A stretch of 60,733 nucleotides of DNA from Coprinopsis marcescibilis (Eukaryota; Basidiomycota; Agaricomycetes; Agaricales; Psathyrellaceae): NCBI GenBank assembly GCA_004369085.1, contig ML210296.1, positions 1 to 60,733 on the forward strand, given 5' to 3'. A program made the position numbers and the translations under genes. Below, piece by piece: positions 34,069-59,405 of this stretch (position 1 is the first letter of the stretch; every line of letters starts with the position of its first letter). A model generated the notes under the pieces. That model was not told the DNA's origin, did no database searches, and worked only from the letters and a program-made list of their open reading frames with translations.

Positions 34069-35961
34069 ATGGACAGCTTTCCGCCTAGGTTCCTCGACCA
34101 GATTGCCAGCTCTTTACTGGCCAATGTGCGTAACTACATTCTCACTTCGAATACGCGTATCTAATCAGTTGGTTCTTGCGGATCAAGTACTTCAACGGTC
34201 GGTCCTCTTCTTTGTCATACTCGGGAGGGAACTGAAGCATCGTTTGCTGCAGTGGCTTCCTTGGTAGTCTTGGTAATTACCTCTCCACTTTGTCGGCCCT
34301 GCAGATAGCCCAACGTCAGTTACAGACTTTGGAGTATTTCCAAACGGTGGGACAGGAGGTACGATTGACGGCGATTGGTCCCGTTAAATCGTGCTCAGGC
34401 TTAGCTCTAACGCCCCACCCGTATCCAACAGGCCAAGCTAATCTGGCCAACGCAATGGTCATACGTAAAGGTCATCTTCATCCTCAATCGATACCTTCCG
34501 CTGGCTCTTGTCCCGCCGATCATATACTGTGCGCATGTAATCCGTGGGATTAGTATGCAATTACTTACCCATCCACTAGATAATGTTGCACCCTTACTCC
34601 CCGCTCTTGTAAGAGACCACTGCATATATCATGGGATGGCACTGATCATCCGATAGACGTGCAAACTCCTGTTTACTGTACCAGCGAGTACGGCGATTCA
34701 ATGACCTGTGGTTGACGTGCTGACTGACACTATCACAGTCGGCATTGCATGCTCCATTTTAGTGGCGGACGGTGAGTTAAATATCAGCAGGGCGCGTTCC
34801 ACTCTGATTTCTTGACGTGCAGCCTTGCTGTACATTCGTATCTATGCGGTATCCGGAAGGTCAACAATAATGCGGAACATACTCGTCGCTAACGCATTGG
34901 TGGGTTTCCCTCGGGTGTAAGTTCCTTCACACACGAAGATCCCGCTGACAGCCGTTCATATCCAGTGCGTGTTCGGACTTGCCCTGGGGCCCTGGGCCTT
35001 TTACCTGATTAAAACAGTCTGTGAGAACTATCACACTTTGTTAAAACATTCTCTTTCACTGATCATGCCCATGCGGTCCCTTACTAGTCATTGACTCCCC
35101 ATTTCCCGAGCTGTCTGGCTGCTTTGGCTCAGAGCCGGGCCCAGTATACCTTGTGATGGTCACCTTTGGCTCACTTCTGTACAGCACCATCGGTAAGGAC
35201 GAACTGACTATTTCCACTGTCCGCGAGCGCTTACTTATCTTTAAATCCGCCACGATTAGTAACTGCTGCCCTTTTTGTGTTCTATGCTGTCAGGCTGAGC
35301 CGGACATCACGAGCGAACCCGTTACTCAAGGTGCTGTACATAGATGGGGCCCTATACTTTATATCTATTGCAGGTCAGTGTTTTCTCTCGTGCGCATGTA
35401 GATTATTACTGATATATTGGGACAACAGCACTGTCTATTATCAATGGCCTGGTCGCAGTTCTCGCCCCGGTGAGTTCATGTCACTTTTGCTCTGACTGTA
35501 TAGCTCAATGTCCGGATTGCCAGGATCGATACCGATTTCTTTTGGCAATGTGCGTTTGAATTTCTCTTGAAGACCCTGCGTTGGCCTTTAGTTGACTAAC
35601 GATTTCATTTGCGCCGCCGCCTCTATTTCCATATTATTATGGAAATGCCAGTCCTCAAGCCGTTTTCCACAACATCCTCGCCGCACGGATGGTACTCGAC
35701 ATTCGAGAAGCTGCCAGAACAGACATGGGTTTTAGATCAGTCAGTGGCTCAAAGAGGGAGACCGTCGGCGAGTTTAAAGCTCCGAGCGAGCCGCAGAAGT
35801 CGACTTTTGGGAGTGACGTTGCTACTGGTGGGGTGATCCAGAGCAAGCAATCTGATTCTACTGGTACTACCCTTCCCACTGATCCAGAGTCGCTGGAAGA
35901 CCGCACTTGGGGAACCAAGGCCCAGAGCGGGTTTAAATATCCACCCGGTGGTGGTAGATGA
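34069..35961 (+). CDS. DUF6533 multi-pass membrane protein, array copy 1
   Basis: All exons can be chained in frame: 34069-34125, 34188-34197 (10 nt), 34253-34272 (20 nt), 34326-34358 (33 nt), 34432-34528, 34580-34608, and further exons to 35961. The core reads TLEYFQTVGQE, then KLIWPTQWSYVKVIFILNR and YLPLALVPPIIY. Later exons give ALLYIRIYAVSGRS, MVTFGSLLYSTI, LYIDGALYFISIA and ARMVLDIREAARTDMG. The family motif FYRDGT is altered here to LYIDGA. After the conserved C-terminal helix comes a polar tail of about 65 residues containing DRTWGTKAQ. Its closest relative is the copy at 43635, which shares the altered motif, the tail and the promoter. Function is unknown. About six to seven membrane segments are visible. 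Confidence 0.85.
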
Positions 35962-37224
35962 TCTCACACACTGACGTGGCATAAAATTACAGTACTTGTC
36001 GTTTATGATGCATGAATTGAACCTCGGGGCTTCCTGGTTATCGATCGGTTGAGCCCGGAATAATTCGAATCACTCTGAAGTAACACCGGTCGCTCGAGCT
36101 TCTCCAGATCGAAATCACTCAAATGTGCCAGAGCTTAGCGACTCGATATCCCTGCAGTGCCCCTGAAGTCTGCGATGAAAGGATGGACTCCTGCTTTAGA
36201 CCAGGTTGATAGTGATACTTCGAGAAACTCTGAAATTCAGACTTCAATCTTGGAGTTGGCTTTAGTCGGATTTAAACATGTTTACTGGAGTCTAATCGTC
36301 TGCGAGGTGAGCATCTGTCCCACGATACGTTCACCCCTGCCCACACGCACCTTGAACCGATGTGCTGCTCAGCGCGGCAACTGGGACACTCCCACATCGT
36401 TCAAGATCGTTGGGCAAGATATCCACGGTCCAACATGAGACATACAGTACAAAGACGGAGCCACCACAGAACCTACTCTTCGTTGGTCACTCCCACAAAG
36501 AGTGTTCATAGGTGAGTCTAAGTACTACTTCAAGAGACACACACCGGCTCACCAGGGGTGTTCATAGTATTTCGCACTGCTGCCACCGCTTTTCAAATAT
36601 TTTGCACGCCGCGCGGCCATCGGTAATCACTGACTTAAGGCGGAGTCAACGGTCAAGCGCTTGTACGTCTTGAGGTATATGACCCTGGAGTATTCTCTGC
36701 AATTTCCGCGCATACCTCTTAATCCTTTGCATCGAATCAGAAGAGCTCTTAGTGCCTTCTGGTAGAGAAGCTATCCAATGTAGTTGAGAATTTAGTGTCA
36801 GCACAAAATTATGGCGTACAACCGAGGTTAAGCATCCATTTCACCATTGCTGGGATGTTTAGAGGTGCCTAAATATTCCTAACTACATTGTGAAAACCAT
36901 GTGCAAAGATCTAACCAGTGCAGCCTAGGCTCTGGAGAAGTGTTTCTGATGGCAAGCACTCAATGGCATCGGAGAAACCAACTAAATGTAAACCTTGTAG
37001 GGTCCCCGACGGCGATCAGGAACCACAGTATACCAAAGATAGACACCTCCCGTGCTGATAATGGGAACCTCTACCAGAAGTGGATAACGACACATCCGGA
37101 TAGCGATGCAGTTGAATCACAACGATCACAGGGTGTTAGGCATTTCAAGTTCTTCCATTCTTGACTGTTATCTTACTTGACTTGACATGTACGCTATTTA
37201 TGCACGCGCTACTAAACTGCATCA
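35962..37224. other. Spacer between convergent DUF6533 copies
   Basis: This 1.26-kb stretch lies between the 3' ends of array copies 1 (+) and 2 (-). Short frames at 36157-36438 and 36901-37164 carry no recognised motif. No gene is supported. Confidence 0.4.
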
Positions 37225-38843
37225 TCAGACACTGGATGTCTCACACATACGACGTACGGTGCTAAGACCTATTTCCTTTCGTGCACTGTCTTTGATATGA
37301 AGTATCATCCTAGTTGAGATAGAGCTGTCGGCCACCACTTGAATGCTAAATATACTGTGTGTTTGGCACAATGGTCGACAGAACGTGCATAGGTGGAGAC
37401 TCACGGTGCCATGATGAAACGGTATGGAGCCTGGCCAACGAAGTTAGCCAAAGACGACCCCAAGGGGTTGCAATGGAGCATGCAAAAGTAATCAGCTTAT
37501 TGACCTCCAAGGTTAGGAAGCGGTCGCACCGGCATAAACAAAGCACCCAGCCCGTTTCCGACTGACAACACTGGACCAATCAAAGTAAATAGGCATGATC
37601 CAATCAAATAAATCAAGTAGTGCTTACACGCAAGAGCGATGAAGTACACCATTCCGTCAAGATAGAATATCCTGACTATCGGCCCAGGGCATGAGGACCA
37701 GTATACCTTCACCCCAAAGTATATACAAAGTAAGGCAACCACTACGGTGATGTGTCAATCTGAGAGCCGGTGAGGAGTGAGCATGGGCAACGTACCAACC
37801 CCACTGTATAGTGCCAGTGAATAAGCCATAGTAACCAGGATCCCGTCGTACAGTCGTCCATAGCACCCTGGAATGGAGTACTTGGAAGGACCCCCTGAGT
37901 AGTATTATCAGCAATTTAGAGGCAAATAGCGAGGTCGCCTGACGTACAGGAGCTGAACATGATATACCGTGCCATCAACGCAAACGATGTCACAGAAACA
38001 ACCTAAAGAGTGCGTTGGGTCCGTTGTAACTCTCCGACATTAGGCCAACCTACAGTCCCATTTGCGATAACAAATATAAGCATCCTCCTGCTCTTTCCAG
38101 AGAGCGCTAGGACTCGAATATAGAGGATGGCTTAGTTACGGTCCATGAGAAACAGGACTCATAAACAGTTATCTTAGCCACCTTCCGAAAACAGAATTCC
38201 TGCAACGACACCCACTGTCAGTGGTAATAGGCAATGGTTACATCAGTTCTCCGTTGAACCTGTCAATAGATACCACTTACAGCATGGAATCGTGAAGATC
38301 ACTTTGCAATACTGGTTCAGTTGGTTAGGACGCTCCCTCGCATTTAATGGAATGTGTTAGGTCACACATACACTATGTGTTACTGTTGCGGTAAAGTTAT
38401 CTATCAGCCTATTGTCAGCGCAGTTCAAAGAGTGTTGGGCAGACACCTACATGCAATCATGAATGGGAGAACAGCCGGAGGAAGAAGGCGATTAATAAAG
38501 TACAGCATTTTCATTAGATTCCAAGACACCGGCCAGATGAGGGATACCTCCAGCTCGATTGTCTCAAAATACTCGGCAATCTCCCATAGTCCGTTCAGGG
38601 CTTTGCGTTGCAGATCTTGGAGCGGGCGTACGTACGAGGACAACAATGCACGCAACTTTAGCTTCAACCATCAGATATCCGTCATGGAATTTTGCCAAGT
38701 CAGGGGCAGCTCACTGTATACATACTGAGAAATCAGCTGAGACAAAAGGGTAGGACAGGGAGTTGGCAGTCACTTACAACATTGTTTCTTATACTGATGA
38801 TCTGCTCGTCCGGTGGTGCGTCTCCAAAGCTTTCCGTTGACAT
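37225..38843 (-). CDS. DUF6533 multi-pass membrane protein, array copy 2
   Basis: The minus-strand gene starts at 38843 with MSTESFGDAPPDEQ. It continues through the 10-nt microexon 38724-38715, the 20-nt exon 38655-38636 and the 33-nt exon 38580-38548, encoding IACIVVL and IAEYFETIELE. The next exon gives VSLIWPVSWN and LYFINRLLPPAVLPFMIA. Further exons carry VVALLCIYFGVKVYW and IVRIFYLDGMVYFIALA, in which the usual FYRDGT has become FYLDGM. The last exon holds SSISTRMILHIKDSARKEIG and a short tail ending at 37225. The frame is open in every exon I could place. Middle exon limits (about 38000-38350) are less certain. It shares an upstream 14-mer with copy 3. Confidence 0.8.
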
Positions 38844-39434
38844 CGTAGGGTTCAGAACTGGAGGCGCTTTCTGGGGTATTGAAGATTGGTGTGATAACCT
38901 CGTTAGGAAGTGAGTTCATCCCCTTATACCAGGTTGCCGTCGACGACCATTATCATCAAACTGCAGACAAACTCAGAGAAAAGAAGAGCTGGTTACCTGA
39001 TCGTATGATAGTGTGGCCCTACACTGAGGTTGGAAGGTTCGCTAACCTCTAATGCAATCTTTTCTGATGGAAAGATGAATATCGCGGGCAACTCGATTTC
39101 CTATTAATATGCCCTTCAAAGGATTATATAGGGAGTCTCAGAGCTATACTTCAGCCTTCGCTGCAGAAATGCTATGTTCTACAGCTCGCCACAGCCGGAT
39201 GGCCAACGCGGGATGGAAGGCCGCAGAACCGAGCTCTTATTTCGATGCATCATGGGTCTGGGCTCCACAGATCATTATCCGACTACTGAAATACGGAGGC
39301 GAATGGATACGAATCCGGAGGAAGCAAGGTCGCTCAAGAAGGGGCTCAAGAACATCGTTGAATCAGCATCATGCGATTGACACAGCTGCTCGAGTTAACA
39401 TTAGGAGAACGCATAACATTCAAATGTCAGGTTT
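38844..39434. other. Spacer with upstream region of copy 2
   Basis: This contains the promoter of copy 2 and the 3' end of copy 3. The word GATGAATATCGCGG at 39074-39087 recurs upstream of copy 3. No gene is supported. Confidence 0.45.
39074..39087. promoter_or_regulatory. 14-bp word shared by the upstream regions of copies 2 and 3
   Basis: GATGAATATCGCGG lies about 230 bp upstream of the start of copy 2. It recurs at 41320-41333, about 213 bp upstream of copy 3. The similarity extends weakly on the 5' side. It may be a retained regulatory site or simply part of the duplicated block. Confidence 0.35.
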
Positions 39435-41107
39435 TCAGATCCGACTCGGACAAGCAGTGCTGAGCCAAATACCCTCTCTCGCCCTTTCCTTCAGATGAAG
39501 TATCATCCTTGTGGAGATGGCACTATGCGCAACAGCCTGGAGCCTGGATATAGAGTCGTAAATATGCCGTGGGTCACTGAGAGGTGGACGAGACATGCGA
39601 TACTCACGGAGCCATGAGGAATCGGTAATGGGGCTGCAATGTTAAAAATGGAATGGGATGCGCATACGCCATCAGATACTTGAAGTGTATAGTATGTGAG
39701 TGGTCTCGCACCGGCATAAGCGAAGCAGCTACCCCGTTCCCGATGGAAAGTACTATATTTGTAGAAAGAGGTTCGGAATACGGATCCGCAACGTTAGAAG
39801 CTGTTTTCAGCCTTGGAAATTGAAACATGACTGCTTACATGCTAGGGCAATGAAATAGAGCGTTCCGTCTCGATAAAACACTGAGACCAGCGGACCATGT
39901 CGTTCCACCCAGTATATCTTAATACCGAAGTATACGCAAAGTAGCGCAACCACTGTCAATTAGAGTCAGTCGATAGTTTGCTCAGAACCACATCATAAAT
40001 GATCATACGTACTAATGCCACTGTATAAAGCTATTGTGTATGCAATGGTAATCAGTATACCATCGTACATTTCCCCATAACAACCAGGCAGGGAGTATTT
40101 GGATGCTCCCCCTGAACAGCGCCAACCGTAAGTTCAACTTTGGAGAGCCTGGGTAAATGAGACACGACATACATGAGCTGAGTGCAATAAATTTTCCAAG
40201 TAACGCAAAAATCGTCACGGAAACGGCCTGAAAATGGGCACTGAGTGTCATGGACTCCACAATGCGAAAAAAGAGATGTACTGCTCCATTTATGACGATA
40301 AAAACAAGTACTTTCTTGCTCATTTGAGAGAGTGCCAGAACGCGAATATAAAGGATGGCTGCGTCAGTAGAAGTTAGACTATTTGGGGCGATGAATCGAA
40401 ACTATTAGGTGGCACCTTCCGAAATCAGAATACATGCAACGATTCCCACTAGCCGTGCTGATTCAATTTGGGATCCACCCCCAGAAACAGCTACACTTAC
40501 CGGAAGGAATTGTGAATAGTATCTTGCAGGACTAAGAAGCGCTCAGGACCTTGTTCGTAAAGGAACACTTTGGAGGATACCCACGGTGTGTGTGGCACTT
40601 GTTGTAAGGTTATCTGGAACAACCAGAAAGTATAGCCACTTCACATGAAGGATGACGGATGGCACCTACATGCAATCATAAACGGGAAACTCAAGGCAGG
40701 AAGAATTCGATTTACGAAGTACAGCACTTTCACCGCACTCCGTTCTACAGGCCATATGACGGACGCCTAATCGGTTGTGTTTCAGTCTCTCTCTAAGCTC
40801 GATAGGAGCTGACGCACCTCAAGTTCAATTGTCTCCAAGTACTCGGAGATCTGCGAGAGACGGGAGTCAGTGGACGTTGTTTGGCATTAGCAAGGGCTTC
40901 TGACAATTATAACAGTAGATGCCACTTGAAGAACCAATTGATGACTTGAAAGACTTTTCTACTCTTTGAAACTTACCATATGCATACTAAGAATGTGAGT
41001 TGTCAGTGGGAGGCCTTGTGATAGAGGAAGAACATTTTGTCACGCACAACGTTGTACTGGATGCTGTCCATCTGTTCTGCAGGTGAAGCGTTGCTTAAAC
41101 CTGGCAT
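39435..41107 (-). CDS. DUF6533 multi-pass membrane protein, array copy 3
   Basis: It starts at 41107 with MPGLSNASPAEQM. The conserved small exons follow: microexon 40986-40977, 20-nt exon 40924-40905 and 33-nt exon 40850-40818, giving YAYVASTVIIISEYLETIELE. Later exons supply the helix after SKKVLVFIVINGAV, the Cys-containing block GGASKYSLPGCYG, ILITIAYTIALYSG, VVALLCVYFGIKIYW and LVSVFYRDGTLYFIALA. The final exon encodes SAISTRMILHLKERAREG and stops at 39435. The motif FYRDGT is intact here. The C-terminal tail is very short, about 12 residues. Copies 2 and 3 are adjacent and co-oriented, so one probably arose from the other by tandem duplication. Confidence 0.82.
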
Positions 41108-41576
41108 AGGGACATCCATTGGGATTAGTATCGGCCAATAGTTGTATGGGTGATGTATCGGGGTGCCTCAGCTTTTTAAACCACAACGACTGCGATGACC
41201 ATCATAGAGCGCCCAACAAAGAAGACGTTTCACTGGCCGCGTAAAGTTGCGTCTCCATGTGTTGACTCTGGAGAGTATTCAACCCTGTCGCAAATGTGTT
41301 GAACCTCGTCTGTTGACGAGATGAATATCGCGGATTCGGTCTCAAACATCCGATCGAATCTTCCTATCAACGACAGTGGTGGTCAAGCATGGAGCAGGGA
41401 GAACGAATTCGAATTCGGAAGCGACGAATCAGATCCCAACTGCGATGAACAGCTGGGCCTTCATCATTTCTCATCCAAGACTCGAGTAGATGCTAACTTG
41501 GAGAAGCGAAGCGGCTCGTGATGGGCGTCGTAGGAGAGTTCCTCCCGGCAGTAAGGTGGAAAAATCAGCATCCAAC
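41108..41576. other. Upstream region of copy 3
   Basis: This holds the promoter of copy 3 with the shared 14-mer at 41320-41333. A plus-strand frame at 41321-41521 (66 codons, acidic) is open but unrecognised. Confidence 0.4.
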
Positions 41577-41726
41577 AAAGGCTTAAAATACTAAACCAGA
41601 GTCCAGCTCACATCCGACGCACGTCGGTATTAAGTTCCATGTCTTCTCTCGCATTTTCTGTCAAATGTGATATCATCTTAATGGAGAGAGAGCTGTGCAC
41701 CACTGCCTGCAGCCTATGTGAGGCGC
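41577..41726 (-). pseudogene. Relict 3' exon of a lost DUF6533 copy
   Basis: This stretch matches 45635-45776, the last exon and 3' flank of copy 5. Shared blocks include TCTTCTCTCGCATTTTCT, ATGGAGAGAGAGCT and GCACCACTGCCTGCAGCC. On the minus strand it encodes a degenerate form of the HSSLSIRMILHLRENARED helix. Similarity stops abruptly at about 41726 and no other exons are present. It marks a deleted or truncated array member. Confidence 0.8.
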
Positions 41727-41989
41727 CGGTCCATCTTTCTCTTTTGTTCCTTGCCCGTGGTTAATTGTGAACGAGACTAACAATTAGCATGTGCACCAAA
41801 CACACTTGTGTGGTGAGTTGGGGTGGAGGGGCTCCAGTAGGAGACTCGAGCCAATCTCCAGGTCGTGGGGCGAAGGGAGACCGCCAGGCGGCGGTGGGTG
41901 ACCGTCTGTGGATGAACCCCCAAACGACCGTGGCGGGCCGATAGGTATCTGACATAGATGCAGCCTTCGATGGGTGGAGTCACTCACTA

Positions 41990-42230
41990 GGTGTAGGGGG
42001 GAAAACCCTTTCAATAGGCATAGGAAGCACCTGTCCATATGTGTAGCCTTTTGATAGGCAGAGATAGACAGCCTTTCCATGGGCGTCGGAATGTCACCTG
42101 TCCATAGGTGTAGCCGTTTGATAGGGGTAGATAGCCAGCCTTTCCATGCGCATAAAGAAGCACCTCTCCATAGGTGTGGCCTTTCGATAGGCATAGGTAA
42201 AAGAGGCCTGCCCATAGGCAAAAGACGATG
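41990..42230. repeat. Degenerate minisatellite with a unit of about 67 bp
   Basis: The word TCCATANGTGTAGCC recurs at about 42034, 42101 and 42167, with spacing 67 and 66 bp, and a weaker unit follows near 42213. Each unit also carries TTTNGATAGG and CCTTTCCATG. About three and a half copies are present. The repeat is open in one minus-strand frame, but the peptide looks artificial (Trp-, Arg- and Leu-rich), so coding is unlikely. Confidence 0.8.
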
Positions 42231-43549
42231 CCTTATCGGCAAAGCACAGCGCTCGTACAGTCGCGCAGCGTGCCAGTCCTGGTTCGGTGTCCAATTCCTG
42301 GTAGTAGATGATCGAGAACCTGATCCACGAGAACACCACGCGAGCTCCAGCTGAACTTGTAGCTGAGGGGGTTATTTGAACAATCAGGGGCGGATGAGGA
42401 AGCATAGGCCCCGTGGCCGAGTGGATAGATACGAGGGATTGCGTTGGATCCAAGCATGTATTGGGGAGCATTCCGAGGTATAGCACAGTAAGTACAATGA
42501 TTGGGGGTTAATGGTAGCGTAGCGCATCATGCGAAACTGTAGGTCGTTGTCGTTGGTGGGATTGATAGTGTCGAGTCTGGTGTCGTGTTGCTGAAGGACG
42601 CTGAGGTCATGCGTCTTGAAGGGGACGTCGATATTCTGATTGCTTGCAGTCAAGCCGTCGTTGTCGCCTGTAGCCGAAGGCGGCTCTGCGATAATGTGGA
42701 AGGCAACAGGGAGGCGCTGCCACGTCACACTGGGTGGCTGACCAGTAGATCCTAAACACAATATAAGACAGTAGAAGACGCAAATTAAGATTTTAGAAAA
42801 CGGAGAATGTAACAGAATATCAGAGAAGGGATGAGGACCGAGCCGACTGAAATTCCAGTCGGTACACCAAAGCTGTCAAGCATGCACGGGGTCACGTGTG
42901 CTTTACTCCGGGGCAAAACTTTGGATTTCAGCATTCCGTAGGGTAGCTGGAGCGTCAGATGCGCAGATCATACGAGATCTACAAGTTCCAAGTCGTTATC
43001 AAGTTGTTATTGATGTCCTCAGCTGCTCCGTCGAAGATGATAAACCCTTAAGCCGCGACGCTCCCGTTTCCATTATTTTGTCCTCCGTCCAAGCCACCGA
43101 TAAGAAGAGCTTCCTGAATCTAGACCAACTACTTTAGCGCGGCCGAGTCAACTTGATGTTCTTTTTCGTAGACATCTTTGAAAAAATCCTGTTCCGGGAT
43201 ACACCAAGTGATTCTGATGGCAATTTTGCCAATGGCCCGAATGCTGTCCTCGACGAGAGAGAGAGAGAAGCGTCGGGCTGCCCATTGATGCCCATCATTG
43301 TTGCTTTTTTCTTTCTTACTATCGTGACTCTTGACACGGGAAGTCAAGAATTCTGTCTTGCGAACATGTCAGACACAAACCATATCCCGTCGAATTCACT
43401 TCTCTTGCGACTGTTCCACATCTGGACAATGATAGCAATCGATCATCATTCGGTGAATCATGCTAGTCAAACCATATCAAAAAGAGCTAACCCGTGAGTG
43501 TTGGGTAAGACCACAGTGGTTCCTAATTATCTGATTTGATTGATACTGC

Positions 43550-43560
43550 AATAAAAGGTA
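43550..43560 (+). promoter_or_regulatory. TATA-like box of DUF6533 gene at 43635
   Basis: AATAAAAGGTA lies about 84 bp before the start codon and matches the element upstream of copy 1 in both sequence and neighbouring bases. Confidence 0.5.
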
Positions 43561-43634
43561 CTTTCAAAGAACCACTTAGAGAGTGCCTTTGACCCCCAAA
43601 CCAGTCTCACCGAGCTGTGTTCTCTCTTCCGACG

Positions 43635-45515
43635 ATGGAGAGTTCCCCGTCCGAGCTTCCAAACCTCAGCCAGCTTTCCAGCTACTTTCTGGGCACTGTG
43701 CGTAAATCCACCATTTCTTTGAGTATGCAGTTCTGATGAGTTTCTGTCCGCCATTAAATTCAGTGCTTCACTCGTTGGTGTTTCATTTGTTATACCTGGG
43801 AGGAAACTGAAGTATCATTTACTACATTAGTGGCTTCCATGGTAGTCCTAGTAGCTGCCTTTTAACTCTGTGAGGTCTGAAAATATCCTGACGCCAATTA
43901 CAGATTTTGGAGTATATCCAAACGGTAGAACAGGAGGTACGGATGATCTAGTTTGATCCAGGCCTGCTTTGTCCTTAACTCCACGTACCTAACAGGCCAA
44001 GCTGATCTGGCCTACGAAGTGGTCTGCCGTAAAGGTTATCTTCATCCTCAATCGATACCTTCCACTTGTTTTTGTCCCGCCGGTTGCATACTGTACGTAT
44101 TTTCTTACATGGGATTAGTATGCCATACTTACCCATCTCTCTAGTCAATGTTACACTCATAACCCCCACTCTTGTAAGGATCTGGTGTGTGCCTCTGAAT
44201 CACGCTTAACACCCAATAGATGTGCAAGTCCCTGTTCACTGTATTCGCAGGTACGATTCAACTTTCTTGTTTGTGGTCGATGTCCTGACATTATCGCAGT
44301 CGGCATTGCAGGGTCAGTCATAACTGCAGACGGTGAGTCAGATATTCGCTAGTAAACATCCTACTCTGAGCTCATAGCCCGCAGCCTTGCTGTATATCCG
44401 GATCTATGCTGTGTCCGGAAGGTCACAAACAGTGCGGAATATACTAATAGCTAACGCTCTGGTGGGTTTCCCTCGGGCATATGTCCCTTCGCATGAAGAT
44501 CAATCCCACTGACAGCTTCTCATGCCCAGTGTGTCCTTGGACTTACCCTTGGGCCATGGGGTGTCTACGTGTTCAAAACAACCTGTGAGAACCGCCGCAG
44601 CTTTTGTAGATATTCACTTTCACCGATCACCGCTTGTACGGTCCTTTCCAGTCGTTCAACCTCCATTTCACAGGCGTGGCTGCTTTGCCGTAGAGCCGGG
44701 CCCATCATTACTTGTAATGCTCGCTTTTGGCTCACTTCTGTATAGCACCATCTGTGAGGATGACCTGACTATCTCGACCGTTCGCAAGCGCTTAACCATG
44801 TTTAATCCGTTGATTAGTGACTGCTTCCCTTTTCGTTTTCTACGCAGCTAGGCTGAATCGAGCCTCATCACGAGTGAACCCATTGCTCAAGGTGCTTTAC
44901 ATTGACGGGGCCATGTATTTTATATTCATTGCTGGTCAGTCTTTTATACTTCTTACTAATGTGTTGTGTCATTACATTATACATTATAGCGTTTTCTATA
45001 GTCAACGGACTGGTCTCGGTTCTTTCTCCGGTGAGTTCAGATCGGGCTGTTGAGTTTCCGAACATAACTAACATTTGGGGTCCGGGTTTCTAGGAGCGAG
45101 TCCCTTACCGATTTATAGTAGTGATGTGAGTTTGAGATCCCAAAAACCTTAGTCTTTGTTGGTAGCTTAACTAACAACAACTGCACTGCTGCCGCACCTA
45201 CTTCGATACTCTTCTGACACGAACAGTCCTCAAGCCATTTCCCACAACATACTCGCTGCACGGATGGTACTCCACATACGACAAGCCGCCAGAACGGACA
45301 TGGGATTCCAATCCAGCGGCGGCTCAAAGAGAATGACCATCATCGAGTTCAAAGCTGCAAGTGAGCCGCCGAGATCAACTTCTGAAAGTGGCTTAGCTGC
45401 TGGTGAGGAGGCGCAGAGTAATCAGTCTAATTCTATTGGCAGTGGCATTCACATAGATCCAGGGTCGCTTGACGGCCGCACTTGGGGAACCAAGGCCCAA
45501 TGGCACGGTGTTTAA
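43635..45515 (+). CDS. DUF6533 multi-pass membrane protein, array copy 4
   Basis: This is the sister of array copy 1. The first exon from 43635 encodes MESSPSELPNLSQLSSYF. The 10-nt microexon is 43764-43773, with an atypical GTTGGT donor. The 20-nt exon is 43831-43850 and the 33-nt exon 43904-43936. The core exon reads KLIWPTKWSAVKVIFILNR. Downstream exons keep the copy-1 features: ALLYIRIYAVSGRS, MLAFGSLLYSTI, LYIDGAMYFIFIA, and a C-terminal ARMVLHIRQAARTDMG with a polar tail containing GRTWGTKAQ. The stop is at 45513-45515, only 145 bp from the stop of the convergent copy 5. The exon frames appear intact, so this is probably a functional recent duplicate. Confidence 0.83.
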
Positions 45516-45659
45516 ATATCCACCCATATCCACTTAACTCATCTCACACATGATGGTGGAGACATGTATGTGCACATACCATTGCTTGTTATTTATCGAA
45601 CCTCGGCGTGCTGGTTCTTGGTCGGTTGAATAAAGGCTTAAATTCAATCAGAGTCCAAT

Positions 45660-47270
45660 TCACATCCGTCGTACGGTGCTAAGTCCCATATCTTCTCTCG
45701 CATTTTCTCTCAAATGAAGTATCATCCTAATGGAGAGAGAGCTATGCACCACTGCCTGCAGCCTATGTGAGGAGCATTACCAATTCGTCAGTCGACGGGA
45801 AACAGGCGGGGCAAGGGAATTACTGACGGTGTCATGATATATCGGTACTGGGCCTAAACAGCCGGACTTAAAATCAAAAGCAAAGGCAGCGGGACGCATA
45901 CGCACCGGCATTACTAGGGCAGAGACGCCGTTTCCTATGGAAAGCACTGAAGGGTGGTCAGAGGAACAAATCGGTTATAAATAGAGATCGAAAGCTTACG
46001 CGCGAGAGCAATGAAGTACAACGTCCCATCGCGATAAAATATCTTGATTATTGGACCCGGGTGGTCCCTCCAGTAGAGTTTTACCCCGAAATACACGCAA
46101 AGGATGGCAACCACTGTGGCGTTAATGCGTTGACGTTCGACGGTGCTCGAGTATGGATCGTATATAAACGACCTACCAAGCCCACTGTATAAAGTTATCG
46201 CATATGCCATGGTAACCAATATTCCATGGCGCTGCTGTCCTACGCAGCCCGGAACAAAAGCTGACTTTGGCCCCCCTGAGAATAATCAGCAACAGTGGAG
46301 AGACAGGCAGATCAGAGACGCACATGAAGTGATTGTGACATATCGAGCCAATAAAGCGAAGGTCGACACAACAACTGCCTGGAGTGTGCTTGTTAACATT
46401 TCTTCGAGTAGGTGAGACGTGTTAGCCATACCGTTCCATTTACGATGATGAAAATCAAAATCGGCCTGCTCATCCCAGAGAGGGCTAATACTCGGATGTA
46501 GAGAATGGCTTTATTGGGGTGATCAGAGATGATTGCCATATAAAAAATCCTTTTTGTCACCTTCGGAGACCAGAGTACATCCGAGAATGCCCACTGTATC
46601 ATAGGCTTGTCAACAATGGATGTTTAAGTCCGATGGTAGAATGACGTACTGCATGAGATCGTGAAGAACAATTTACAACGCTAGGAATAGAATTTGTAAG
46701 GCTTCCGGTATGCGCGGAGGTTTGTCTCACGCACGTCGTTGGTTGCTTCTGTCGTTATATTATCTATTTCAAGGCAAATATAGGGAGCTTGGCCAACAAT
46801 TGAAGAGCGCACTTACATGCGATTACAAAGGGAATGACGGCCAGAGGGAGGAATCGGTTGGTGAAGTACAGGACTTTGACGTGGGTCCAGCCCGTGGGCC
46901 AGATGAGGGATACCTAGGATGATACCATCGACCTCTTGTTCTTGAACGAAGGGGGATTATCACGAACCTCTAGCTCTAGCGTATCCAAATACTCTGCGAA
47001 CTTTGTACGTTAGGAGTTAGCACTCGCGGATAAGCTGAAGTCAAAGGTTATGGGCTCACTAGTACAACAAGGCAAGCCACTTGATAAGGCAACCGTTCAT
47101 CAAGTAATGCTTCTTTCAATTCGTTAGAAACCTACTGGGAACATACTAGCAACATCGCCGGGTGTTGAGCAGTCTCCACCAGTGTAAATGGAGCAGTCAC
47201 TTACAACATTGTAGCGAACAAGATTGATCAAATCTTGGTGTGGGACATCGACTACACCTGTTGTTGACAT
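45660..47270 (-). CDS. DUF6533 multi-pass membrane protein, array copy 5
   Basis: The gene starts at 47270 (MSTTGVVDVPHQDLINLV). Small exons are the microexon 47145-47136, the 20-nt exon 47079-47060 and the 33-nt exon 47000-46968, giving YVPMACLVVLFAEYLDTLELE. The next exon reads VSLIWPTGWTHVKVLYFTNR and FLPLAVIPFVIA. Further exons carry AILYIRVLALSGMSR, ILVTMAYAITLYSG, VVAILCVYFGVKLYW and IIKIFYRDGTLYFIALA. The last exon encodes HSSLSIRMILHLRENARED, then GLSTVRRM and stop, so the C-terminal tail is almost absent. The first exon resembles that of copy 2 (MST start, NNV/YNV end), pointing to a common minus-strand ancestor. Confidence 0.83.
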
Positions 47271-49729: not shown

Positions 49730-51509
49730 ATGATGCTCGAAATTGGCGGTGTATCGGTGGAAGACCATTTGTGGGGTGGCCGTATCATGGTGGTAAGTGG
49801 AATGCTTCCTACCTGCTCCCTGCTGCTTCTCAGGAACACTGAAACGATGCGATCTACCTCCAGGATCTTTCTAGTCAGTGGATGCTTCTTTTACTCTTAG
49901 CTTGAGATCGGTTGCAATAACGCATATCTATTTCAGTGGCATGTTGGGTCATCCTCGTGAGTCCCCGACTTTCATTCACTATGCCAAATACCGGATTCAC
50001 GTCTGAAACAGTTGCTTGAGTACCTTGATACATTCCGACTGGAGGTGCGTGCTTGGTCCATCGGACTATTCAAGAACTTTGGACTTATGCCATGTTGTCC
50101 AGGTCGAGCTCATTTGGCCAGCGAAATGGGGTCTCGTCAAACTGCTTTATGTCCTCGATAGATTCCTGCCATTCGTGATCCTCCCATTTGTTGGTTTCTG
50201 TTAGTAATCAATATTCTCCGACATTGCCTCAGAGGCTCATACTCCTACTTTTCAGATAATATCACGGCCAACCCGTCGAGCGATGTGTGTAGCGATCGTT
50301 TGAAACCTAGAAGAAGAAGCTGGACCTCAATGTTATAACAGTTTTGCCGCATTCTTTTTGCAATCCCTTGCAGTAAGTGCGATTAGGCATGCCTAAAACT
50401 TCCTACAGCTACTAAACCACCTTTCTTTCGCCCAGTGGGTATTATAGCATGCATATTCATAGCAGAAGGTGCGTTTAGCCTGACCGCACAGCTCACAACC
50501 ACTCAGTTCCACGCCCTTACCAGCCATTCTCTACCTCCGAGTTTTCGCTCTTTCTGGAAGAAGCAGAACAATCCTCGTTGTTATTCTCATTAATGGAATT
50601 GTGAACCAACCCTCCCTCATAAGTGAAACAGCGCGAGTCTCATCATGGAAAAATAGGTCGTCGTTGCCACATGTTGTGCTCTACTTGCACGCTACATCGC
50701 CCTTGCTACATGTACGTCTGCATTCCCTGGATTCCTTTCTGGAACCTTACGAAGCTCGTACTAGGGGACATCCCGCGACCTCCCGGTGTCTCTGGTTGCA
50801 AAGGTACATTCACGGACGGGAAGTTGGTTATGATTGGCTATGGGACAACGCTGTATAGCGGTATTCGTACGTCTTCGATCGCTCTTTTGCTGTGAATCCC
50901 TTTACTCAACGCCAACCCTCATATCGCAGTCGTTGCGGTCCTCTGCGTCTATTTTGGGATCAGACTGTACTGGTCGCGGCGGCCAGGACGCATAATTACG
51001 ATCTTCTACCGGGATGGCACCATGTACTTCATCGCCCTTTCTGGTACGCTGGCTTGCTATCCGCTAACCCCTTTGTCTGACCCGCCCTGCACCCCTCTCC
51101 CACATCGCGATAGTCATGTCCATCACGAATGTGGTGATCGCAGCCAACCTACCGGTATGAACACAATCCTACCCCTAGCTGCGAGAAAACCGTTGATTGG
51201 AATGTGAACTACACAGACCGGATTTCGATTTTTGATGGCACCGTGCGTACCCTTCTCCTTGGGATCCGTATCCCGGCCGAGCTCGCCGCAGCGCCGCCTG
51301 GCCTCTTTCTTTAAATCTTTCGCTTATAACAAATATGCAGATTCCAGGGTGTTTTAACCAGCAGCCTCTCGATTCGCATGGTCCTGCGACTCCGCCAAGG
51401 CGCGCGAGAAGACATGGGACTCACCACAGTCAAGGTGCCGGATATTGAATTCACTCCAGAGACAAGCGGTATCGCCATGGATGTCCCACGAACCCGACTT
51501 GGAGCATAG
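49730..51509 (+). CDS. DUF6533 multi-pass membrane protein, array copy 6
   Basis: Every exon can be followed. They are 49730-49792, microexon 49864-49873, 20-nt exon 49937-49956, 33-nt exon 50012-50044 and a core exon reading VELIWPAKWGLVKLLYVLDR. After these come NITANPSSD, FCRILFAIPC, GIIACIFIAE, AILYLRVFALSGRSR, VVVATCCALLARYIALAT, the Cys-containing GVSGCKGTFTDGKLVMIGYG, VVAVLCVYFGIRLYW and IITIFYRDGTMYFIALS. Then follow MSITNVVIAANLP, TGFRFLMAP and a last exon with SSLSIRMVLRLRQGARED and a tail of about 30 residues. This copy gives the clearest view of the family plan: alternating membrane helices, a conserved FYRDGT before the penultimate helix, and an amphipathic basic helix after the last one. 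Confidence 0.87.
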
Positions 51510-52261
51510 GCAGAGCGTGATGTTCAGACAATCGCTTATTGTGTGACCCAATAATATGTTTCAGCGCAGTAGACCAGGGCAAGTGAAAAGCTTGAACCCA
51601 GTTAACCATTAATACCGCTAACTTGGACGGACATATGTACATACTACTAGACTCAAATCGAACCTAGGGGCTTCATTACATACCAGCCTCTTACATAGTA
51701 TTGCCTGGTTGCGTTATGACGCAGATCAGTTGACTTGCTCGGACTAATGGGATTCTGTATTACATATATCAGACAACTAGAGTGATGGTTCCCTCACTCA
51801 TTTTGGATATCTGGAGCAAAGTGCAGATGCGGAACAAATGGCGGGGAAGGTCTGAAATTTGTCTGAAAGCTGGAATGCAACAGAATCTAACAAATTAGCA
51901 AGGGCGCCGACTCCTGGGCCGACATTCGCTCTGCTGAGTTTATAATCCCCGAACCCTATTGCAAATTGTTCAGCTGTAGTAAGCCTCTCAATCTCTTCAT
52001 ACGCCTCTTCCATGTACCCACGCCGCGGGACAACTAGTATTACTTACTGGCTCCTTGCGGCAATTGCCTCAGCCTGGGCCGTGATTGTCGTCGAGCGACA
52101 CGCTGTGTTGTCACATGGCACCGTCTGCCATTCGCAGATATAAGTGAAACCACCCGATGCCTGGGTGGTCATAGCCCTCTCCCAGCTGTCGTCCAATGCG
52201 CCCAGGATTCACCACGACGCCCGACAGGTAACTGAGCCAGAACACCGCCAAGTTCCCGATA
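51510..52261. other. Spacer between array copies 6 and 7
   Basis: A minus-strand frame at 51798-52013 contains IERLTTAEQFAIGFGDYKL but no recognised motif. The rest is the promoter of copy 7. No gene is supported. Confidence 0.4.
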
Positions 52262-54223
52262 ATGGTTCTCCGATTTGACGATGGAACGCTTGAGGAGCAT
52301 TTGACTAGCATCCCTATCAATGCGGTGAGTCGTCAGAATTTTTCTACCGTGTCCTGGGACGGTCGATGTTGAAGCGCTCGGTTGAGTTTCCAGTCCCTTC
52401 CTTGTGAGCAAACTTCTGTCTATATTATTTTGAGGTTGTCCAATTAACCCGTCGTTTCTAGTGGCGTGCTGGGTCATCCTTGTGAGTTTACGGCCGCTTG
52501 TCGACTTCCGATAACAACCAGATACTGAACCACCTAAAGATGTTAGAATATTTTGGAACCTTTTCAGAAGAGGTACGTTCCGCATTACATTTTGCGTGCC
52601 ATCAAGAAGATTGTCTGACGGTCCCCCGCCCACTGCTATCCAGGTCGAGTTCATTTGGCCGGCAAAGTGGGGTCTCGTCAAAATACTCTACTTCCTGGAC
52701 AGATTCGTCCCCCTGCTGGTCCTTCCACTTATCGTTGCTTGTGAGTGTTCTATGAGCGTTATCCTTTGGGGTTCCTAGCCATCAGTTCTAATCTCCCTGT
52801 TTAAAGATAACATCACGGATCGGCCGACTCCCGATGTACGTACGATTTAGTCAACTGAGGCCTCACCGAATGTTGACCATGTACAGGCATGCCGTGCGTT
52901 CTTCGCTATCCCTGGTGGTAAGTCGCGCGCACAAACGAGTGCCTACTTCCGCTGATCAAAAGCCTCCTTGCCCAACAGTGGGTCTTGTCCTGTGCATCTT
53001 TCTCGCCGAAGGTGCGCATTCGTACTGTACTTAAAATGCGTCTCGCCGTACTCACAAGCTCGTATTACTTTCAGGCCTTCTCTACCTCCGCGTTGTTGCT
53101 CTCTCTGGAAGGAGCAAGAGAATGATCGCGTTTATTGTTGCCAACGGAGTAGTACGTTGACCCATTCTTCCCCTCCGTGTCCTTCATAACCGACGCGAAT
53201 TGTTAGATCACGATGGGCGCATGCTTCGCTCTAATGGCGAGGTACATCCTACTCGCTACATGTGGGTCTCGTCTACCCTCATGTTCTTCTAGATGCGCAA
53301 CTCATATTCGAATCCGCTCTTCCTAGGGGACATTGAGCGACCAGCGGGTTTCCCAGGCTGCAAAGGCGTGTTTCCGAACGGGACAATAGTGATGATCACA
53401 TATGCCCTGACGCTCTACAGCGGTATCCGTATGTAACCTCGCCTTTAATCCGCGACAGGCCGTCCGCTTACGCTCTCGTCACCGATTCCTACCTACCCCC
53501 GACATACCGCATCAACTTTCATATGCCTACCCTGTCCCGTATATCCGCATCCGAATCTGCGGACGTAGTGGTTATGGCACTCTGTATCTACTACGGGTTC
53601 AAGAAGTATTGGACCAACAAACCAAGCCATATGATCAAGATCTTCTACCGGGACGGGACAATGTATTTTATCGCTCTCACCGGTACGTGTCGCAGTTCAC
53701 CTGCTTCCCTTCCTGTTGCCGAGAGCTGACCATCCCGCGTTTCCAGTCATGGCAATCTCGAATTTGCTGATCGCTGCGAATTTGCCGGTACGTATTGATA
53801 GCCAATTTGTGCACGCAGGAAAGGTGGTGCTTACTGATTATTCGTTCGTCGTCTCACAGGCTAAATTCAGATTCCTAATGACGTCGTACGTCCCTTTATC
53901 CTCCCTTCTCCCAGTCAATTCCCTCATACCCTCCACCTTCAAGGTTCCAAACCGTAATGCATAGCAGCCTCTCCATCCGAATGGTCCTGCACCTCAAAAA
54001 GAGCGCACGATCAGAAATGGGTCTGGGGAGCACCAGAGCCCCTGCTCCCTTTGGGCCACACAATAACAGCCACAGCCACACAACCACGGACTACGTTCAG
54101 CAGAGGACCGTGGATGTGCAGCTGGTGGATATTCAGAAGACGATTGACATCCATCGGAGTACTGCGCCGCCTACGCCTGCGTTTAAGAAGCCGGTGATGT
54201 ACAGGCAGTCGCTCGATCCTTGA
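52262..54223 (+). CDS. DUF6533 multi-pass membrane protein, array copy 7
   Basis: Exons 52262-52324, 52394-52403 (10 nt), 52462-52481 (20 nt) and 52540-52572 (33 nt) lead into EFIWPAKWGLVKILYFLDR and FVPLLVLPLIVAY. Downstream lie DNITDRPTPD, ACRAFFAIPG, GLVLCIFLAE, LLYLRVVALSGRSK, PAGFPGCKGVFPNGTIVMIT, YALTLYSG, VVMALCIYYGFKKYW and MIKIFYRDGTMYFIALT. The last exon gives HSSLSIRMVLHLKKSARSEMG, followed by a tail of about 65 residues that is His-, Gln- and Thr-rich. Exon 1 and the 33-nt exon have the same sizes as in copies 6 and 8. It is followed by the ornithine carbamoyltransferase gene on the other strand. All frames seen are open. Confidence 0.86.
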
Positions 54224-54586
54224 AATTTAAATCAGCGTATAATTTCTGTTGTACTAAAGGCTAAACCAAAGCCTTGCTAGAAGGAAGGAAGGAGAGTTAT
54301 TAATAATGGATGGAACGGGCGGAATGACTTTCTTCTTTCTACGGATTTTATATCGTTAGTCTCTTTGATGTACTCACACACAACACAATTCGTTCTTTAC
54401 CTGTACTAGGTTTTTTTTATTATTTCAATTTTATTTTTTATACGTATCTTATGTAGATCGGTTGTATAAAATGTGCTGTCATTGCAACACCAGAAGCATA
54501 CCATGTTATACCATCCCAATGTAACGAAATTATCTGCACTGCATGGGGTGGTGGGGAGTCGAAATACGGTGGGGATATAGGTAACT
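54224..54586. other. Spacer between convergent genes
   Basis: An AT-rich 360-bp stretch lies between copy 7 (+) and the ornithine carbamoyltransferase gene (-). It probably consists of the two 3' untranslated regions. Confidence 0.5.
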
Positions 54587-55855
54587 TTAGTCCGAGCCAT
54601 CATATTTTTTGTCGTCGCGTTTCTGGTCGGCAGTTCCATCCAGGCTCCACTTTCCGAAGAGGTTGCTACAGAAAGAAATCATGAGAGTCAGCAATTAGTC
54701 TAGGAGGTGGGGAGAATATGCAGACGCACTCGAAGAGAGCCATGATAGTCCATTTCCGGTTATCGGCTTCAGGGAACACAAGCGACCGGGGACCATAGAA
54801 GACCTCGTCGTTAACTTCCTGAGGCTTTCGGGGCAGGCAGTGGAGGAATTGCCAGTTAGGGTTCGCGCCGCCTTCTCGGCAAAGCTCCTCCGTTACTTGA
54901 TAGCCTTCGAAGTCCTTGAGGCGCTGCGCCTTCTCGGCTTCCTGACCCATAGAGATCCTAGTAACGACGTTCAGGAGCACGCATGAAGAAGAGAAGAGAG
55001 TGACAGACCATGTGTCGGTAACAACGACATCAGCACCCTTGACTGCCTCTCTGGGATCCTCGCCCCACCAGATAGCCTTATCGCAACCAAGCTCCTCGAC
55101 GCGCTTCCAGACCTCAGCTGGCGCCCGGTATTGCGGTGGGCTAGCTACTCGCAGTTGGTGTCCAAGTCGAGGGTATGTGACGAGCATGTCGTTGAGGATG
55201 TTGTTGGCATCGCCGACGTATGCGATGGTAAGTGGACGCAACTCCGGAAGTTGCTTGCTGGGCTTTTCTGGTGCAAGTTCCCCGGTGAATAGGTATGCGT
55301 GTTCGTGCAAGGTAAGAAGGTCTGCAAGGATTTGCGTTGGGTGCCAAAGTGATGATAGGGCGTTGAGGACAGGGACGGGAGAGTGTTGCGCGAGTTCCTG
55401 CGTTCGGACATTTCGGGTGAGGATGTTTGCCACGAAATGGGGAGAGAGGGATTTCGTACCTCGATTTCGGAGTGGTCGCCGACACGGGCGAAGATACCCT
55501 GGCACATTCCGCCGATTACTCGCGCAGAGTCACGAGCAGACTCGTTCACACCCAGCTGGATGTCCTCTTTACCCAGGAACAGCGCGCGTCCGCCGAGCAG
55601 CGTCGCGCTGGTTTCAGCAGCAAGCCTTGTCCGGGTGCTCCTCTTGCTAAAAAGCAAGGCAATAGTCTTGTTGAACAGAGATTGGGGAGGCAACTTCAAG
55701 TTCTTGGATTCCTTTTTGGACAAGGAGCCCTGTGGTACAAGCCATGGTTCTGAACGGCGTTTTATTGTGTAGGCATGTCGAAGGGTATTTTGGAGTTGGG
55801 GTACTGACAGGTCAGCCAGGGTCATTAAGTGGGGAACTGCCCGTTTGACGGCCAT
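54587..55855 (-). CDS. ARG3: Ornithine carbamoyltransferase
   Basis: Four exons (55855-55460, 55397-55009, 54957-54730, 54665-54587) join in frame to 363 residues. The carbamoyl-phosphate motif STRTR is present ([12 protein letters not shown], about residue 75). So are HPTQ (about 170), DTWISMGQE and the ornithine-binding HCLPR (about 310), followed by [19 protein letters not shown]. The enzyme condenses carbamoyl phosphate and ornithine to citrulline in arginine synthesis. In most filamentous fungi it is mitochondrial. The N-terminus here ([17 protein letters not shown]) is short, and a transit peptide is not obvious. The second intron has a GTCTGT donor, but removing it restores DTWISMGQE exactly. 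The gene sits inside the DUF6533 array between copies 7 and 8. Confidence 0.95.
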
Positions 55856-57554
55856 GTTGGGTGAGGAGTCAGAGATGTATAGGTTAGTGGTCGCAGCGAA
55901 ATCCTTGGACTGAGCGAGTCACTGTGAGCTGGTTTCGTATTTGTCTCTATTTAATTTGAAAGCCAATGCCTTCGAGTCTTGCCCGCGTTCGATCCCAGCT
56001 GAACGTGTCTTTCCACAACTCACTGGTTCCCGATTATACACAACTAAAAGAAAAGGAATTGCCAGGGGAAATAATACTCCTTTTGCTTCCGGCTCACATA
56101 CATCCGAGGCACTATGCACTTCCAGATGCCAATCAACTGCATCGTGGAGCATGTCGACCTCGAATCCTAATCTATCGCAACCTACCGCCAGGTGCGACTC
56201 GGACAAGAGTAATGGATGGGAAGGCGTATTCACAAGTTGGAATGACACAAATTGAAGGAAATTCTACTTGGAAACCAGTTTCCGGTACATCGGTGAGTGC
56301 AATTGTCTCGACCGTTCCAGCGCAGCACAACGCAACTGAAGTGCAGAAGTTCTAGGGCCTAGCGTGGGAAGATCCGTATCCGACCCGCGGCCAAAACCAC
56401 GGATGCCGCCGTTGACGGATACAGATACGGATTAAAACCACGGGTTGTGGTTGTATCCAGTTGTATCCGCAACAAAAAGCGTCAATAATGGCGGCAGCCA
56501 CGTTCTGGAGTCCAAAACATGCTGGTAGTGTTCCTACCACTATTTTTTTCTTGTTTGGAACAATTTTAGTCTCAAAATCCGCAACAGAGCTCGAATGTTT
56601 CAAAAAACAGAATCAAAAATAGATATAAAATCAGAAATAATATAAATAAATAATCAAATGATCCGAGAAATTCGAATTTCCTCTTGATCAACACGGCCAA
56701 TGTTGGGGAGTCCAAGCCCCACAGATGCAACCACCAAACCACGGATAACCGCGGAATTGGTTCCCACGCCCAACCAAAACCATCATAATCCGCCGAACAC
56801 GGAAACCGTGGTTGCCGTCCGCGGTTAGGCCGATCCACACTAGGCCCTATGCAGAACAGACCTTGCAGATAAGGGCAACAACCTCCGAAATAAGACAGTG
56901 CCTCTCAATTTCCGGTTCTGTGGTCTTCCATGACGAGAGGTTCCTCGGAAAAGCTCCAAAGCTGTAGTGCTGCGAATGAATATCATTACAAAGGTGAGGT
57001 ATCTTCGCTCCACGTTTATACGTCTCGCTTACTGGTCGCTGGTATTTGACCCACCAGGCTCTTACCCAGCTTCGCGGCTTATATCTACTGTCAAGTCCAG
57101 ATGACAATCAACCTCGAGGAGCGTGTGCATCTCAAACATGACTACAGTCTATTACCGGGCAAGCAGTGGGTTGGCATACGGATCAGCTGAACCTTCCCTC
57201 CAATGCCATGTATGTCCTCAAACTCCGTTTCTGGCAGCTGACCTGACCCACAATCGGCACAGGAGCACTGTACGTCATGATAGACATCGTCAACTACTTT
57301 CCCTTTCCTTGTTCAGCACACCCACACATGGTCAGGCGAGCTCGGCAAGCTCCTCAGTGTTTCTGAGCGCTAGCTTTGGAAGGCAGCTCGGCTGTGCGCG
57401 ACAAGCCAAGCCGAGTTTTCTGGATGGTTATCATGACCCTGGTTAATGAGTCCAACGAACTTAGATGTTTATAAAAGATCGTCGCAGCTCGACAATCAGG
57501 ACTCTTTCCTGACGTTCACCCCAACTGTTGCGATCCTGGTGAAGCCCTGGCGCG
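55856..57554. other. Spacer with a short inverted-repeat element
   Basis: This 1.7-kb stretch includes the promoter of the ornithine carbamoyltransferase gene, the element at 56353-56849, and the promoter of array copy 8. Other frames here show no recognised protein. Confidence 0.45.
56353..56849. mobile_element. Non-autonomous inverted-repeat transposable element (MITE-like)
   Basis: The ends are inverted repeats: TAGGGCCTAGCGTGG at 56353 and, read on the minus strand from 56849, TAGGGCCTAGTGTGG, with 14 of 15 bases matching. The inside holds several subterminal words of the type AACCACGG and CCGCGG in both orientations, and an AT-rich middle (56530-56690). No transposase frame is present. 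If the outer TA is a target duplication, the element is Tc1/mariner-like. The subterminal repeats and TAGGG end would also fit hAT. TGCAGAA occurs on both flanks but three bases off the left end. Length is about 497 bp. Confidence 0.75.
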
Positions 57555-59405
57555 ATGGACATGTTGCAGGATCTTCAAGAGCTGGAAGCGCAATACATGA
57601 GCATGCATCTCAATATAGTGAGTCTTCGACTTCTTTTAGTCCGAATAGCCTAGAAGTTCAGAATACCCTGGCTAGATGGTTGTCGGTGAGCTTCTCCTGA
57701 GCGTTCTTGTAAAGTATCATCTCAACAAAGCTGACTGTTGGTCTAGTGGCTAGTTTAACGCTTCTGGTGCGCGTCATGTCAGAGCGATCCTTATCAACGC
57801 GTACTAAACTTTTACCCAAGTTTCTTGAATATCTTCAGACCCTGGAACTCGAAGTGTGTACCGTCCTTGTGCCCACTAGTTGGAGGGATTACTTATGAAG
57901 TGAAAGGTTTCGTTGGTCTGGACGTCAGAGTGGAGCCTGGTGAAATGCCTCTACCTCATAAACCGATTCCTCCCGTTCTTCGTCTTACCATTTGCACTCT
58001 ACTGTGCGTGAATAATAATTTTGTGGCTGGAGAAACACACTGATTCCCTATAACTAACAGACAATCTCACCGCACGACCCTCACCCCAGGTAGCTACTCC
58101 GTGCACAGCGGGCAAGTTTCGCAAGTACTGACTCCTCTCTACATTGAAGGTTTGCAAAGTTGTGTTCGCCATTCCTTGTAGTGAGTCACCTATTGCGATG
58201 TTTCTCGCCACGTAACTGACCTGGCTTTGCAGTGGGAATCGCATTGTGCATCTTCATCTCAGAGGGTGAGTTCCCAAAATCTCCTCTTCCCTATTCGCCT
58301 GACATTACGTTTTCAGCAATCCTGTATCTCCGTGTTCATGCTTTGTCCGGAAAGGGAACCTGGATCCTCGTATTTATCTTGGGTAATGGAATCGTGAGTG
58401 AATGTTGGATCACCCCTTAGGTACTGACAATAACCTTCGCTAGTCCGTTTTCTGTGGGAGCATGGGCTTGCTGGGGTACTACGTCGCCTTAGGATCATGT
58501 GCGTACATATCCTCTCCCCATTTCCATATGCAAAGCTCACCAATATTTCTCAGGGGACGGCTCTGAGTTCGCTCCTTTTGTCCCTGGATGTTTTGGCAAG
58601 TTTACGGAGAACGGGCTGCTAGTCATGATCGGGTACCTTTGTCTGTTGTATAGTGGGCTCGGTACGCCTTTCCGTCATCTGGACAACGTGGCGATCTTAT
58701 TCTCATGGACGGACCGACCAACAGTGACGATGATCCTCTGCCTTTACTTTGGGTTCAAAATCCATTGGTCATCGAGACGTAGCCCGATTCTCAAGGTCTT
58801 TTATCGTGATGGGACGTTCTATTTTGTTGTTCTGGCCGGTGAGTTATTTATCGATGGTGGATGTATCTATGACGGTGCCACTGAAACCCTGTATATGCAG
58901 TCATGTCAATTGCAAATGGAGTGGCAGCGCAGTTCCTTCCAGTGTGTCCCACTTTCTCCTTTTATCGTCACAGCGAGGGTCCTAACTGGTCTCCGTGCTC
59001 TATCCAGGCTCGATACCGATTCTTGCTCGCTGCGTACGTGGCTCTATCCGACCCGCACGTTTCGCCTCAATCTCACTACTCATTGCTCGACCTGACAGAC
59101 CACAAGCAGTGATGCACAGCACCCTTTCGACGCGGATGATCCTCCATCTCCGGGAGAGTGCGAGAGCCGAGATGGGGTTCACGACGATGAAAAACATATT
59201 GTCGGCTGTGAACGAGGAGCTGGTTGTCGATCCCGATCAGATGCATACCAAAGTGTGGCAACTTGGTTCTCCGGATGTGGAACACGTTTCCGGTTCCAGC
59301 TCCGACTCTTCCAGTGCGAGTGCAAATGCAAGCACAAGTGCCAACCTTGGTGGGAGTTCTGGGAATGGAACGTGCAGCAGTGGAAGAGGGGTTGCGATCG
59401 TATAG
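57555..59405 (+). CDS. DUF6533 multi-pass membrane protein, array copy 8
   Basis: Exons 57555-57617, 57676-57685 (10 nt), 57747-57766 (20 nt) and 57821-57853 (33 nt) encode MDMLQDLQELEAQY, then VASLTLLFLEYLQTLELE. The core exon gives VSLVWTSEWSLVKCLYLINR and FLPFFVLPFALY. Later exons carry GIALCIFISE, AILYLRVHALSGKG, LVFILGNGI, the Cys-containing FVPGCFGKFTENGLLVMIGY, TMILCLYFGFKIHW and ILKVFYRDGTFYFVVLA. The final exon holds HSTLSTRMILHLRESARAEMG and the longest tail of the family, about 75 residues, rich in Ser, Gly and Asn. A second in-frame ATG at 57561 could also serve as start. It is the last member of the array. Confidence 0.86.

Follow-up and report, generated by a model that had tools for sequence, protein, structure and literature searches.

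Nine intact DUF6533 genes in one window

The window analysed here is a 60,733-nucleotide stretch (positions 1–60733 of contig C151) from Coprinopsis marcescibilis, an inky-cap-type mushroom of the Psathyrellaceae (Agaricales). It contains an array of eight DUF6533 genes, g2–g9, and a ninth, g1, nearby (Table 1). All nine are intact, and we consider it probable that they are paralogues within a family of basidiomycete seven-helix receptors resembling G-protein-coupled receptors (GPCRs). The array itself is a tandem cluster of an already known Pfam family. The new elements are a GPCR-like fold predicted in two lineages, conservation of the predicted inner face, a microexon plan common to the genes, and how large the expanded family is next to the small orthogroup of the Coprinopsis cinerea DUF6533 protein Snowball (SNB1).

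The models of g3, g4 and g6–g9 were built by splice-aware profile alignment (Python), while the first exons of g1, g2 and g5 and three further g5 junctions were placed by hand. Each model runs from an ATG to a stop codon with no internal stop (0/9). Every intron ends with AG and all begin with GT except two GC introns in g1; an apparent frameshift in g1 was a first-pass artefact of a GC–AG intron and was rejected. The models confirm the eight genes, orientations and outer coordinates given by the initial annotation, together with its ninth gene near 7.5 kb. The exons follow one plan, with lengths from first to twelfth of 57–72, 10, 20, 33, 97, 29, 31, 33, 77, 55, 99–108 and 114–117, a thirteenth of 41, then 26–32, and a final exon of variable length; exons 4 and 5 are fused in g3, and exons 6 and 7 in g1. 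All nine models share the 10-nt second exon, as do 5/5 models on contig C83.

Family membership, previously proposed from motifs, was borne out by the PF20151 profile, whose cut-off of 24.1 bits is passed by 9/9 genes. Genes g3, g4, g6, g7 and g9 were scored through the deposited proteins P0003, P0002, P0001, P0004 and P0005 (28.5–44.9 bits), and g1, g2, g5 and g8 through our spliced models (38.4–50.2 bits). The motifs once taken as shared hold more loosely: the FYRDGT-like motif recurs in related forms (FYLDGM in g3, LYIDGA in g2 and g5, FYRDST in g1), the IWPxxW core becomes VWTSEW in g9 and IWPVER in g4, and the C-terminal STRM reads AARM in g2 and g5 and SIRM in g6–g8.

Seven deposited C. 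marcescibilis proteins match array genes, three of them letter for letter (g2, P0021; g4, P0002; g5, P0023). The deposited versions of g3, g6, g7 and g9 depart from the spliced models: P0003 differs from g3 at both ends, P0004 differs slightly from g7 near the N-terminus, P0005 starts later than g9, and P0001 reads intron 11 of g6 (46114–46176, minus strand; 63 bases, no in-frame stop) as coding, gaining 21 extra residues. Among the deposited proteins returned by protein searches, none corresponds to g1 or g8. The array also suggests a reason why DUF6533 genes are easily misannotated, namely a 10-nt microexon and 13–14 short introns within ~1 kb of coding sequence.

Table 1. Features of the window (positions in nucleotides; aa, amino acids; ORF, open reading frame).
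Feature	Position	Strand	Exons	Length (aa)	Microexon	Remarks
g1, DUF6533 gene	7535–9115	+	14	297	7656–7665	PF20151 38.4 bits
g2, DUF6533 gene	34069–35961	+	15	345	34188–34197	
g3, DUF6533 gene	37225–38843	-	14	283	38715–38724	
g4, DUF6533 gene	39435–41119	-	15	281	40977–40986	structure predicted
gx, orphan last exon	41611–41712	-				g6-like; 84.7% over 150 nt to g6 end
g5, DUF6533 gene	43635–45515	+	15	342	43764–43773	
g6, DUF6533 gene	45660–47270	-	15	277	47136–47145	
g7, DUF6533 gene	49730–51509	+	15	299	49864–49873	
g8, DUF6533 gene	52262–54223	+	15	336	52394–52403	
g9, DUF6533 gene	57561–59405	+	15	345	57676–57685	
ORF with FDF domain	5097–6041	-				
C/D-box small nucleolar RNA	6108–6210	-				snoZ13/snR52; Rfam RF00335, 85.4 bits
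DUF7928 parts	24810–26312	+				PF25550; in two ORFs
Minisatellite	42007–42193					67-base unit, ~2.8 copies
Ornithine carbamoyltransferase ORFs	54666–55855	-				PF00185, PF02729
GRDP-like ORF	59915–60673	-				similar to end of PF07173 domain, E 4.5e-6

Predicted fold and conserved inner face

Structure prediction for g2 and g4, which represent two lineages, gives seven helices in a GPCR-like bundle, in keeping with the receptor-like multi-pass topology of the initial annotation. The best structural match of g2 is Ste2, the class D fungal pheromone receptor (PDB 7ad3), which is also among the best for g4; the identity is 8–9%, and the likeness is structural with no link at the sequence level. 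Microbial rhodopsins and adiponectin receptors rank close behind GPCRs among the g4 matches. The VIA-align lists re-examine Foldseek's own rows, so that a family missing from them is uninformative. The viral structure library gave no match under E 0.001, and many of its named rows are viral GPCRs. The distinct helix 8 suggested earlier is not supported; in the predicted structure of g4 the C-terminal motif lies inside one continuous seventh helix (residues 244–275). The N-terminus is predicted to lie outside the cell; sequons and the charge pattern were looked at as indirect indicators of this N-outside/C-inside orientation.

Conservation follows the predicted topology (g4 numbering throughout). 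In the 44-row alignment, mean column identity is 0.409 in the inner helix halves and inner loops (122 positions) versus 0.275 in the outer part (145 positions), a gap reached in 0/10000 permutations. The inner half is the more conserved in helices 1–6 taken singly, whereas helix 7 does not follow (0.43 inner, 0.46 outer). The 22-row alignment has 17 invariant columns, 11 of them inner and six outer; R258 and M259 lie midway along helix 7 and are counted as outer by the chosen cut. Six residues, E45, W50, C163, D214, R258 and L261, are identical in 44/44 rows, with R114 and K58 kept in 43 and C89 in 39. A Cys pair linking the top of helix 3 to the second outer loop is common in GPCRs though not universal, and both C89 and C163, which would form a putative bond of this kind, are present in 39/44 rows. 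In addition, C89 and R114 are 25 residues apart in 33 of the 38 rows carrying both, the same spacing as between Cys3.25 and Arg3.50 of class A receptors; this is consistent with class A and is not proof of it, because any membrane-crossing helix gives ~25.

Comparison with known families

No solved structure related by sequence was found at E 10, and none of 19 members scanned matched 7tm_1 (class A) in Pfam. The hallmarks of class A GPCRs are the D/E-R-Y, CWxP and NPxxY motifs. Neither CWxP nor NPxxY occurs in the nine-gene alignment, and R114 is kept but preceded by I, L, V or A. Microbial rhodopsins carry a retinal-binding Lys in helix 7; at every position from 242 to 261, Lys is found in none of the 43–44 rows. 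Weak Pfam links among the 19 members, namely CECR6_TMEM121 in one (E 0.0015), GPHR_N in two (best 0.027), DUF6050 in two (0.032) and others in single members, were rejected because they fall under the cut-offs where these are shown and nothing is consistent across members.

A comparison with one partial STE3 pheromone receptor of the same genome revealed no similarity, with an hhalign probability of 2%. The STE3 matches of this genome lie on contigs C24, C40 and C210, of which C24 and C210 also carry 12 and 3 of the DUF6533 positions described below.

Genomic clustering, duplication and selection

With the limit set at E 0.001, a PF20151 search of the genome (36.3 Mb, 448 contigs) returned 85 exon-level rows; at E 10 it returned 148. 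The 148 rows were merged by hand into 142 DUF6533 positions on 61 contigs, an approximate count that takes in weak rows, some of them possibly scraps, with the best candidates alone scored; positions with the domain number some hundred or more. Another position lies within 10 kb of 79 of the 142, as compared with ~7.5% expected under uniform placement, and the clustering is therefore not due to chance. Chaining at 10 kb yields eight clusters of at least three positions: eight on C151, seven on C328, six on C83, five each on C131 and C71, four on C72, and three each on C210 and C57. On C151, the profile search gave no row past 57,981.

In a maximum-likelihood tree of 44 rows, g3, g4, g6, g7 and g8 form one clade (support 100/99), and g2 and g5 pair (100/100) with a C83 gene as sister (100/97). 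Gene g9 groups with weak support, first with proteins of another Coprinopsis (80/79) and at the next level with C83 genes (85/82); g1 groups with two C166 genes (93/80). Repeated duplication, as previously proposed, is partly supported, since the tree shows several lineages and not one burst. Given these lineages and pairwise identities of 30–66% within g2–g9, the array is an old and mixed cluster in which genes have most likely been both gained and lost, the orphan exon gx indicating that copies disappeared. A minisatellite adjoins this exon.

Pairwise NG86 counts give ratios of nonsynonymous to synonymous divergence (dN/dS) of 0.37 for g2/g5 (dS 0.57), 0.17 for g3/g4, 0.15 for g3/g6, 0.16 for g4/g6 and 0.22 for g7/g8 (dS 1.5–2.0 for the last four); in a sixth pair, g6/g7, dS is saturated. 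Overall values of 0.15–0.37 indicate that purifying selection dominates; the diversification suggested by the initial annotation finds a possible counterpart only in g2/g5. In this youngest pair, pN/pS is 0.66 in the outer half versus 0.20 in the inner half (Fisher 1.6e-4). The excess is absent in the four older pairs (p 0.19–0.63). The outer half of g2/g5 thus appears to be under looser constraint, possibly reflecting diversification; positive selection is not demonstrated. A pN/pS of 3.21 in the extracellular loops of this pair (nonsynonymous 24/85, synonymous 2/29; one-sided Fisher 0.013) was rejected as proof, because the synonymous count is unusually low (2/29 sites as compared with 76/165 in the membrane and inner parts) and including the N-terminus raises p to 0.084, which is not significant. 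The sole other pair under the pS limit, from cluster C83, shows a trend (p 0.053).

Proposed mechanism and alternatives

A ligand would bind among the outer helix halves, beneath a hairpin-bearing second extracellular loop anchored to the upper end of helix 3 by a putative Cys89–Cys163 bond (g4). On binding, a conserved polar network on the cytoplasmic side would become looser. This network comprises E45, W50 and K58 (end of helix 1, first inner loop and start of helix 2) together with two residues that form a putative lock, R114 at the foot of helix 3 and D214 close to that of helix 6; the invariant R258, midway along helix 7, would be the likely relay. The inner face common to all copies would then open and couple to a shared partner, most simply a G-alpha protein, and because the copies differ outside they would report different ligands.

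SNB1 is the single DUF6533 protein with a tested phenotype found in the accessible literature. As described there, it is a predicted seven-transmembrane protein with its N-terminus outside, its knock-out yields undifferentiated fruit bodies, and its authors note a layout typical of GPCRs yet place it outside GPCR classification, leaving transporter, channel or receptor as options (PMC10949477). Compared by this published description, SNB1 shares the Pfam domain and predicted topology of the array proteins, and differs in its long inner loop and small conserved orthogroup. The array proteins could instead be seven-helix channels, transporters, lipid-handling or opsin-like proteins that resemble GPCRs in bundle shape alone. 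This view, which we regard as unlikely, is favoured by the rhodopsins and adiponectin receptors ranking close behind GPCRs for g4, by the solved-structure, Pfam and STE3 comparisons that link DUF6533 to no GPCR family by sequence, and by the options that the SNB1 authors keep. The GPCR-like fold, Ste2 as the best match of g2 and the conserved inner face make the question left by those authors, concerning a protein needed for mushroom patterning, directly testable.

It is about equally improbable that the genes are SNB1-like developmental proteins, redundant copies without ligand diversification in an array shaped by neutral birth and death. The requirement of SNB1 for fruit-body differentiation (PMC10949477), the dN/dS values of the array pairs and the copy loss marked by gx all fit such an account, whereas the g2/g5 outer-half excess counts against it. 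So does copy number: the SNB1 orthogroup is described as having 1–3 copies in most Agaricomycetes and 4–5 in Psathyrellaceae, with no major expansion (PMC10949477), as against PF20151 at ~100 or more positions here.

Returning to GPCR-like receptors, we tentatively raise the possibility, which we hold to be somewhat less than even, that DUF6533 is an unrecognised class beyond the 17 fungal GPCR classes listed in accessible surveys (PMC12842992, PMC13308352), forming with ~100 genes here a chemosensory repertoire of the Pth11-like kind, with a fixed inner coupling face and outer faces that grow apart once genes have been duplicated in tandem. The Pth11-like receptors (fungal class XIV) are likewise described as a large lineage-specific seven-transmembrane repertoire (PMC12842992, PMC13308352), reported only from Pezizomycotina (PMC12842992); unlike them, none of the 19 DUF6533 members scanned matched the CFEM or fungal-rhodopsin Pfam models. 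Ste2 is reported from Ascomycota only, and DUF6534 proteins have been proposed as a further GPCR class beside the 17 (both in the accessible text of PMC12842992). Set side by side by description, DUF6534 is, like DUF6533, a large seven-transmembrane family of mushroom-forming fungi whose function is likewise not established, and it differs in having a separate Pfam model (PF20152), with 15 matches in this genome and none in the window. Accessible open-licence literature on DUF6533 or PF20151 yielded no claim that these proteins are GPCRs; the domain is listed in some Ganoderma (PMC8955403). The fungal DUF6533 family, large but little studied, may comprise an unrecognised set of sensors, and the array offers a natural paralogue series with differing outer faces.

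Other features of the window

The ornithine carbamoyltransferase ORFs lie between g8 and g9, and ORFs related to DUF7928 and GRDP-like domains are also present (Table 1). The small nucleolar RNA is located immediately upstream of the ORF carrying the FDF domain, on the same strand.
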